Assembly (NCBI GenBank): GCA_027488575.1
Contig: JAIYBJ010000007.1
Span: 1-37,780 of the forward strand
DNA: 37,780 nt
Source: Streptomycetaceae bacterium
GTDB lineage: Bacteria; Actinomycetota; Actinomycetes; Nanopelagicales; Nanopelagicaceae
Direction of reading: 5' to 3'
The notes beneath the pieces were generated by a model. It was not told where the DNA came from and made no database searches. It saw only the letters and a program-made list of their open reading frames with translations. Position numbers and translations under genes: made by a program. Of the stretch, positions 23,972 through 26,024 are shown one piece after another; within the stretch, counting starts at the first letter, position 1; each line of letters begins with the position of its first letter.

Positions 23972-24574
23972 TCATTTCATTAACTTCACTTCTGGCCAGC
24001 TATATCCAAGTTGATTCATCGCGCTACGAAGAAAGGGCATTGAGATACCAACAACGTTTGTGTAGTCACCTTCGATAGATGGAATGAAAGGAGAGCTAAA
24101 ACCATCGAGCGTAAAGCCACCTGCTACGTGAAGAGGTTCACCGGAGTTTATGTAATCATCTATTTCAGCATCTGACATGTCTGCAAAAGTGACTTTCGTA
24201 GTTATTCGATCACTTATCTCTCGCCCCTGGCTTGTATCGATCACACAATGGCCTGTATGCAAATATCCAGATTTCCCTCGAACTCTTTGGGCCCGCTGCT
24301 TAGCAACATGTGCAACGCCAGGTTTGCCAAGTGATTCGCCTTCGAATTCAAAGGTTGAGTCGCAACCAATAATGATTGCAGGAAAATCGATTTGCTCACG
24401 AATTGTGTGCGCTTTGGTGATTGCCAATGCAATAACCATGTCTTGAGGTGTCATTGCATTGAAGAAATCGGTTTCTTCATCAACATTGCTCACCATAATC
24501 TGTGGGGAAAGCCCAGCAGACTCCAAGAGTCTGCGTCTAGAAGTTGATTGAGAAGCTAGAACAATTTTTGGCAT
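23972..24574 (-). CDS. maf: Maf-family nucleotide pyrophosphatase
   Basis: A 200-residue Maf protein, a house-cleaning nucleoside-triphosphate pyrophosphatase linked to septum formation control. The N-terminal LASQSTSRRRLLESAG (near residues 6-21) is the family signature, and the catalytic aspartate lies in GCDSTFEFEG near residue 70. The C-terminal DYTNVVGISMPFL matches the usual NVxGLP region. It is on the minus strand with the nucleoside genes, 26 bases upstream of punA, and divergent from the PurK-like gene. Confidence 0.92.
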   Translation of the reverse strand: MPKIVLASQSTSRRRLLESAGLSPQIMVSNVDEETDFFNAMTPQDMVIALAITKAHTIREQIDFPAIIIGCDSTFEFEGESLGKPGVAHVAKQRAQRVRGKSGYLHTGHCVIDTSQGREISDRITTKVTFADMSDAEIDDYINSGEPLHVAGGFTLDGFSSPFIPSIEGDYTNVVGISMPFLRSAMNQLGYSWPEVKLMK

Positions 24575-24684: not shown

Positions 24685-25647
24685 GTGGTGAGCCAAGCCG
24701 CCAATAAGATAACTACTGTGAAATCTGAATTTCCAGTCGTGGGCGTAATTGGCGCAGGCAAATTAGCACGAATGATGGTTGCACCAGCAACAGCGTTGGG
24801 CATTAAGTTAATTCCGTTCGCATCAAGTCAGGCAGATAGCGCCGCCCAGATAACACATTGCGTGATTGGTGATTACTCAGATATTGAAGCCATCAAGAAA
24901 TTTGCAGAACTGTGCGATGTAGTGACCTTCGAGCACGAACTCGTTCCACTGCACATCATTAAAGCCCTGGAAGTTGCTGGGGTCAGGGTTCGTCCCGGTT
25001 CACATACTTTCGAGTATTCAAGGGAAGAACTCCTAACAAAGGATTTAACCGATTTTGATTATGAAATTTCTGTGATGGTCGCGCGATCACCACACGCACA
25101 AGCCACTTCATGGGCGCCAACGCAGTTGATAAAAAGCGATGGAGTTCTTTCTGTAACTATTTCACCTGCACCATTAATGAGTGCTGAAATGAGTGAGCAG
25201 AGCCAAAAAATTGCTCTAGATATTGCTGCTGAGATAAAACTAATTGGTGTCATGGCAGTTCTAATGTGCGTGAAGGGTGAGAATGTATTTGTAAATAATC
25301 TCGTTTTACATCCGCACGTATCAGGTAATTGGAGTATCGAGGGTTCGCAAACGAGCCAATTCGAACAACACATTCGTGCCATTCTCGATCTTCCGCTGGG
25401 TGATCCAACGATGCTCGATGATTATGTTGTAACGGGAAATATCATTGGAAAAGATAAATCTGACATGTATCGCCCTTACCTTCACTTAATGGCACGTAAT
25501 CCTTCTCTCAAATTCCATATGTACGCAAATGAAGTTCGCCCCGGCAGCGAAGTTGGTCATATCACCGTTGTTGGAGATGACCTTGAGAATTTGCAAACCG
25601 AAATACATCACGCCCTTGACTATATGAGCGGTGAAATTGAAGAATAA
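24685..25647 (+). CDS. PurK-like protein lacking the ATP-grasp core
   Basis: A 320-residue homologue of N5-carboxyaminoimidazole ribonucleotide synthase. The N-terminal GAGKLARMM (near residues 23-31), CDVVTFEHELVP and C-terminal SQFEQHIRAILDLPLG, RPGSEVGHITVVGDD match PurK. Between EELLTKDL and FDYEISVMVARS, however, the roughly 80-90 residues holding the ATP-binding lysines and glycine-rich loop are absent, without frameshift. The metal-binding NE(I/L)APRPHNSGH segment reads NNLVLHPHVSGN, losing Glu and Arg. Synthase activity is therefore unlikely. No purE follows. Start GTG at 24685 or 24688. Either a decaying purK or a repurposed non-catalytic protein. Confidence 0.85.
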   Translation: MVSQAANKITTVKSEFPVVGVIGAGKLARMMVAPATALGIKLIPFASSQADSAAQITHCVIGDYSDIEAIKKFAELCDVVTFEHELVPLHIIKALEVAGVRVRPGSHTFEYSREELLTKDLTDFDYEISVMVARSPHAQATSWAPTQLIKSDGVLSVTISPAPLMSAEMSEQSQKIALDIAAEIKLIGVMAVLMCVKGENVFVNNLVLHPHVSGNWSIEGSQTSQFEQHIRAILDLPLGDPTMLDDYVVTGNIIGKDKSDMYRPYLHLMARNPSLKFHMYANEVRPGSEVGHITVVGDDLENLQTEIHHALDYMSGEIEE

Positions 25648-25664
25648 AAAAGAGATCTAGCTAG

Positions 25665-26024
25665 TTATTTAGCGCGATACTCAATTGCAGGACACCGATC
25701 CATAATTGCTATTAAACCCGCTGCTTCTGCGCGCTGTACAGAGTCTTGATCAATCACGCCAAGCTGTAACCAGATTGCTTTGGCACCGAGTGCGATAGCA
25801 ACGTCGACATGGGGGCCTACCAGCTCTGAATTAACGAAAAAATCAACTACATCAATTTTTACTGGAATCTCTTCAAGAGTTGCGTACCCTTTTTCACCAT
25901 GAACACTCTCTGCTTTTGGATGAACAGGAATGATTGTGTGACCCTTTTGTTTTAAGAGCGCTGCAACCGAATAAGCCGCTCGATCAGGGTTATTACTTAG
26001 TCCTAAAATTGCCCACGTTTTCAA
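25665..26024 (-). CDS. CoA-binding domain protein (YccU-like)
   Basis: A 119-residue single-domain protein of the CoA_binding_2 family with a Rossmann-like fold. The start (WAILGLSNNPDRAAYSVA) and the end (DRCPAIEY) are typical, the latter containing the conserved cysteine. Function in the cell is not established for the family. It begins with TTG at 26024; no better start is visible because the upstream codons are not starts. It occupies the position where purE would be expected in actinobacteria and lies 31 bases after the ugd stop. Confidence 0.85.
   Translation of the reverse strand: MKTWAILGLSNNPDRAAYSVAALLKQKGHTIIPVHPKAESVHGEKGYATLEEIPVKIDVVDFFVNSELVGPHVDVAIALGAKAIWLQLGVIDQDSVQRAEAAGLIAIMDRCPAIEYRAK

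Follow-up and report, generated by a model that had tools for sequence, protein, structure and literature searches.

Streamlined genomes drop genes that are not needed, and the retention of an apparently dead enzyme in such a genome calls for an explanation. The DNA analysed here (37,780 nucleotides, referred to as the window) comes from the acI group of freshwater Actinobacteria, which is among the most abundant groups of lake bacteria and of which some members have been grown. At positions 24685-25647, the window carries an open frame that is clearly a homologue of PurK, but whose ATP-binding part is missing. Why is a PurK kept that would no longer be able to catalyze its own reaction? The features on which the answer depends are listed in Table 1.

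The PurK gene and its surroundings

The frame is open throughout its 320 codons, and GTG 24718 (residue 12) is the likely real start: homology sets in at this codon, and pLDDT values are below 50 for residues 1-12. Aligned with full-length relatives of the same genus (376-391 residues), the protein shows a single gap, between EYSREE and LLTKDL, and is otherwise continuous. The stretch absent relative to the nearest full-length relative of this gene, that of G034 (QAMRKK...GGYDGRGVW...KNSPK), includes the ATP lysine and the GGYDGRG loop. Both had been placed in the missing part by an earlier sequence-only reading, whose estimate of 80-90 deleted residues is replaced by 61 in this comparison.

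Residue roles were taken from the literature on the enzyme (PMC3261824, E. coli numbering), and the metal carboxylates were assigned by alignment position. The metal segment, already suspected to be degenerate, reads NNLVLHPHVSGN where full-length relatives have NELAMRPHNSGH (rare variants occur among the latter), and by alignment position the second metal carboxylate, a Glu, has become Asn205. Near the C-terminus, the YAKEVRPGRK of full-length relatives has changed to YANEVRPGSE. An AIR-binding role, which had also been proposed, is hard to reconcile with these changes: the equivalents of E. coli Gln11, Lys307, Arg313, and Lys314 are K, N, S, and E in the window protein and are mostly lost across the short forms. 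Retention of the catalytic columns among all short forms is 12% for the Gln, 6% for the metal Glu, 0% for the Arg of RPHNSGH, and 3% for the His of SGH; in the RPGRK columns, Arg is retained in 6% and Lys in 12%. Because the ATP lysine, the GGYDGRG loop, and the metal and AIR residues are gone, we infer that the window PurK would be unable to function as an ATP-grasp enzyme.

Elsewhere, the protein remains recognizable as PurK. Three Pfam models (PF02222, PF22660, and PF17769) match above their cut-offs. They cover the pre-ATP-grasp and PurK C-terminal domains and, of the ATP-grasp domain, the C-terminal stretch at positions 70-179 of 179. The NCBI purK model TIGR01161 gives 221.3 bits, which is below its curated cut-off of 318.4, compared with 349.5 for a full-length relative of the same genus. 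The AlphaFold model (47 aligned sequences) has a mean pLDDT of 91.5 and a pTM of 0.89, with disorder in residues 1-12 only, and VIA-align superposes it on solved PurK chains with Z scores of 37-38 and an rmsd of about 2 A over about 300 residues; Foldseek agrees. Since the input alignment consisted mostly of full-length PurK, the predicted fold is partly given by homology. A PurK fold minus the lid is confidently predicted.

In nearly all genomes with full-length PurK, purE lies directly 3′ of purK, the exceptions examined being cuts at contig ends. The CoA-binding gene of the window had been thought to take the place of purE; it is instead the ancestral convergent neighbour of purE, and what has happened is that purE is missing from between it and purK. 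A suggested link to the adjacent nucleoside-scavenging island turned out not to be specific, as punA, PMM, and deoC also lie close to purK where PurE is present and PurK is full-length. When neighbourhoods were compared for a partner gene, no neighbour was gained or lost strictly together with short purK. Some further differences were noted at this locus. Between 23972 and 24685, the window lacks accA, accD, and birA, which surround maf before purK in full-length relatives (L216:2800-7669); these three genes are missing from the same place in several short-PurK genomes, but G258 has all three and G265 has accD and birA. In several genomes of another genus, g40, an AIG2-like gene of the gamma-glutamyl cyclotransferase family is inserted between punA and maf (L252:2494-2949).

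Table 1. Features of the purK locus in the window (positions count from the first letter of the window; short forms are PurKs that lack the lid).
Feature	Position	Strand	Basis
maf, divergent neighbour of purK	23972-24574	-	Locus comparison
Lid-less, putatively non-catalytic PurK (pseudo-PurK)	24685-25647	+	320-codon frame; probable true start GTG 24718 (309 aa)
Lys26 in place of AIR-contacting Gln (E. coli Gln11)	24760-24762	+	Q in all full-length rows and 12% of short rows
Deletion junction Glu115/Leu116	25027-25032	+	61 residues absent vs G034, including Lys (E. coli 120) and Asp (E. coli 127) of the ATP-grasp region
Kept motif RSPHAQATSW	25084-25113	+	Short forms: R 94%, S 100%, H 94%, Q 100%, W 91%
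Leu193 in place of Glu of VAVEMF (metal carboxylate by position)	25261-25263	+	Alignment
Degenerate metal segment NNLVLHPHVSGN (NELAMRPHNSGH in full-length relatives)	25294-25329	+	Alignment
Kept motif W...T..FEQH.RAILDLPLG	25330-25401	+	W, E, R, L, P, L, G in 100% of short forms
Kept motif MYRPYLHLMARNPSLK	25465-25512	+	P, L, H, L, A in 100% of short forms
Asn282, Ser288, Glu289 in place of AIR-contacting Lys, Arg, Lys (E. coli 307, 313, 314)	25528-25551	+	Alignment
Kept C-terminal motif HA..Y.SGEI.E	25609-25644	+	Column conservation in short forms
Site of purE in full-length relatives; here purK adjoins the CoA-binding gene	25648-25664		Locus comparison
CoA_binding_2 protein (PF13380), ancestral convergent neighbour of purE	25665-26024	-	Locus comparison, Pfam

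Distribution, repeated origin, and the purine pathway

A short PurK was found in 9 of the 135 genomes of the genus (G000, from which the window comes, and G258, G265, G262, G027, G016, G020, G229, and G281), and purE was found in none of these nine. The search for individual pathway genes covered purE, purL, purF, and purH. Neither purL nor purF had a match in any of the six short-PurK genomes tested (G000, G016, G020, G027, G229, and G258), apart from weak matches to other enzymes; purH is present in G000, G020, G027, and G258. The source genome (1.16 Mb in 46 contigs) is 86% complete, and chance incompleteness is an unlikely cause of its losses because the absence of purL, purF, and purE is common to the five other short-PurK genomes tested, which supports the earlier proposal that step 6 of purine synthesis is broken. 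Some caution is needed, as two incomplete genomes with full PurK and PurE (G009 and G034) likewise gave no strong purL or purF match. The same loss of purE, purL, and purF was observed in genus g25, complete genomes among them, whose short PurK has 276 residues and is not recognized by Pfam. Since published acI genomes have been described as complete for de novo nucleotide synthesis (PMC5301498), the pathway loss is lineage-specific; the literature covered, from which most subscription papers were absent, contained nothing relevant on purK or purine loss in the acI group.

Two further candidates were rejected in these searches. A second full-length PurK in the source genome was rejected, as an ATP-grasp search returned, besides the short gene, only a 370-residue and a 1088-residue frame, consistent in size with D-Ala-D-Ala ligase and carbamoyl-phosphate synthase. 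An apparent purF remnant with stops in G258 was also dismissed, because the contig concerned has no similarity to the purF of G014. This small contig (C176; L267) holds an unrelated glutamine-amidotransferase-like stretch that looks foreign, possibly viral, and is probably a contaminant of the bin.

Close relatives do have a complete ATP-grasp region, as the sequence-only reading had foreseen for the case of a sequencing or assembly deletion; such an artefact is ruled out here, since several independent genomes each show deletions of their own. The deletion edges are particular to each of G000, G258, G265, G262, G027, and G020 and common to G229, G281, and G016. A PurK tree built without the deleted columns requires six changes between short and full-length forms in the family and four in the genus, with some long branches (G020 and G027) placed less certainly, and a tree of flanking genes (maf, UGDH, LCP, punA, and PMM) likewise requires six in the family. 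A single short clade was rejected by the AU test, both for all nine genus rows (p = 2.5e-5) and for G000, G258, G265, and G027 (p = 4e-11). One ancient short paralogue, or horizontal spread of a short form, is thereby rejected by the AU tests together with the flanking-gene tree. These comparisons indicate that short PurK arose independently at least four times in the genus and about six times in the family. A separate observation concerns the full-length purK of G034 and G263 (L038 and L216), which differs by a dS of only 0.11 compared with about 1.1 for the nearby UGDH, which makes it likely that the purK stretch was recently exchanged between species.

Gutted forms are also found in other genera. 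In the sister genus g27, 13 examined genomes carry a gutted PurK, which purE directly adjoins in 12, the short gene being flanked by birA and purE so closely that their ends overlap or touch; purL, purF, and purH are present in most of the genomes examined. No other full-length PurK was found in the short-PurK genomes of g27 except in G158, which has a distant full-length purK-purE pair elsewhere (L120:3468-5070), probably acquired, and still keeps the short purK at the ancestral place (L105:1084-1974). Shorter and more divergent PurK remnants occur in g37 and g40, at the same place between maf and UGDH, and in g32, beside maf or close to birA; LPLG and PxLHLxAxxP are still present in them, as is an HA near the C-terminus. 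In G067 of g32, a 411-codon frame without a Pfam match stands beside the remnant (L254:1887-3119), and frames of similar length occupy the same place in G082 and G094.

Selection on the short genes and reasons for their retention

Pairs of short genes have dN/dS values of 0.17-0.26 in the clade of G229, G262, G281, and G016 and of 0.08-0.14 in g25, compared with 0.05-0.07 for most of the comparable full-length pairs and 0.02-0.06 for neighbour genes, several of the dS values being saturated. The rate of change at third codon positions of the short genes is roughly two to five times that at second positions. All short PurKs found are free of internal stops (the two TAG codons that were flagged precede the start), and only 6% of unconstrained copies would be expected to remain stop-free at 0.1 substitutions per site and 0.7% at 0.2. 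As short purK evolves several times faster than its neighbour genes, the constraint on it is weaker than that on the enzyme. Taken together, the short PurKs have remained under clear purifying selection after the loss of catalysis, which favours the non-enzymatic role that had been suggested for the window protein. Such a role would not be indispensable, given that at least one genome (G134) has lost purK from an otherwise intact locus with purE kept, and that several g40 genomes gave no PurK match.

The columns kept in short forms, mostly at 85-100%, are R, S, H, Q, and W of RSPHxQxxxW, a further W, E and R of EQHxRA, LPLG, PYLHLMA, and the C-terminal H/A/Y/G/E; most of the kept motifs are shared by actinobacteria with full-length PurK, including Streptomyces and Brevibacterium. 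We lean towards the explanation that a non-catalytic PurK has been kept as a functional pseudoenzyme for a second, purine-independent role. Under this model, the PurK of the family would have, or have had, a second function that needs no ATP, AIR, or PurE, hence its retention; with the need for catalysis lost, the ATP-grasp lid could have been excised and the metal and substrate residues could have decayed. The pre-ATP-grasp and PurK C-terminal domains would have been kept as one folded body together with the C-terminal half of the ATP-grasp domain. The retained job is probably one of binding or scaffolding, for which the conserved C-terminal motifs RSPHxQxxxW, EQHxRAxLDLPLG, RPYLHLMARxPxLK, and HAxxYxSGEIxE are candidate determinants. 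Alternatively, the kept residues could simply be those that the fold needs.

Several other explanations have to be weighed against such a second function. The short gene might be a decaying relic whose function went with the pathway and which has not yet been removed, and its faster evolution than that of its neighbours, the complete loss in G134, and the still shorter remnants in g37 and g40 would all fit. However, the absence of stops, the dN/dS range of 0.08-0.26, the keeping of the 276-residue form by the whole genus g25, the invariance of the motifs across independent lineages, and the readiness with which unused genes are otherwise lost from these genomes make this unlikely. No greater likelihood is given to the idea that the remaining nucleotide-type fold may act as a small-molecule sensor, binding a purine or another ligand and regulating salvage. 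Within the genus, the pre-ATP-grasp domain has been largely preserved, and punA and deoC lie close by; nevertheless, the AIR and ATP residues are gone, the nucleoside island also accompanies full-length PurK, and it is the N-terminal domain that is least conserved in g25, g37, and g40, while the C-terminal motifs persist.

Retention for operon reasons only, such as translational coupling to purE, would agree with the tight arrangement of birA, purK, and purE in g27, but we regard it as very improbable: purE is gone from the short-PurK genomes of the genus and from g25, selection acts at the amino-acid level, and G134 keeps purE without purK. Least probable is an altered but still PurK-type enzyme, for which the overall fold would speak; against this stand the loss of the ATP lysine, the GGYDGRG loop, both metal carboxylates, and four AIR residues, and the failure to find PurE and the upstream pathway in the source genome.

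PurE of the sister genus and comparison with known systems

The PurE proteins of g27 that stand beside a gutted PurK or with none (G134), 12 in total, were compared with 24 that stand beside full-length PurK. Relative to all 24, Met49 is replaced in every one of the 12 (11 Thr and 1 Val), Ser80 is Ala in 12/12, Met77 is Val or Ile in 11/12, and His73 is Ala in 7/12; these genomes form one clade, so the diverged PurEs may represent a single event. These substitutions lie in the active site and are diagnostic of such PurEs. The motif AAHLPGM/VASL has become AAHLPGV/VAAL or AAALPGV (e.g., L104:3054-3575, L102:3449-3970, and L249:4083-4604), as if the chemistry had changed. It may be that PurE of g27 handles AIR without PurK, either carboxylating it directly or drawing on N5-CAIR formed non-enzymatically, two routes that have been discussed for other organisms (PMC3261824). 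A broader and more tentative proposal, which we consider possible, is that actinobacterial PurK has an undescribed, purine-independent function in its C-terminal half, to which acI lineages would have repeatedly stripped the protein (about 200-320 residues, unrecognized by Pfam in the most diverged genera), the loss in g27 having been accompanied by a shift of PurE towards forming CAIR without PurK.

That a catalytically dead enzyme is kept several independent times after the loss of its pathway suggests that a textbook enzyme has a hidden function, and the independent cases, when compared, already separate catalytic residues from those of the other function. The change in g27 PurE offers a natural experiment on living without PurK. 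In addition, an annotation of purK as present does not imply purine prototrophy.

With PurK itself (EC 6.3.4.18; TIGR01161; structures 3aw8, 3r5h, and 3k5i), the window protein shares descent, locus, the pre-ATP-grasp and C-terminal domains, and overall fold, but it has no ATP-grasp lid, metal site, or AIR residues and no PurE partner in its genome. It resembles cases of domain atrophy (PMC4432964) in that a large deletion has affected a core domain of an otherwise intact protein, whereas here the deletion recurs independently in related lineages and would abolish catalysis; the PurK discussed in that study is an intact enzyme set against a different fold. The literature covered, with most subscription papers lying outside it, contained no PurK pseudoenzyme. 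Purine synthesis without PurK, by class II PurE or at high CO2, is known from archaea and others (PMC3261824) and is similar to g27 in that the pathway is present without a working PurK; unlike in those systems, PurE of g27 keeps a class I frame with substitutions of its own, and the dead PurK mostly remains beside it. Finally, pseudoenzymes such as inactive metallopeptidase homologues (PMC11266112) provide a likeness in which the fold is kept, catalysis is lost, and the protein is retained under selection.
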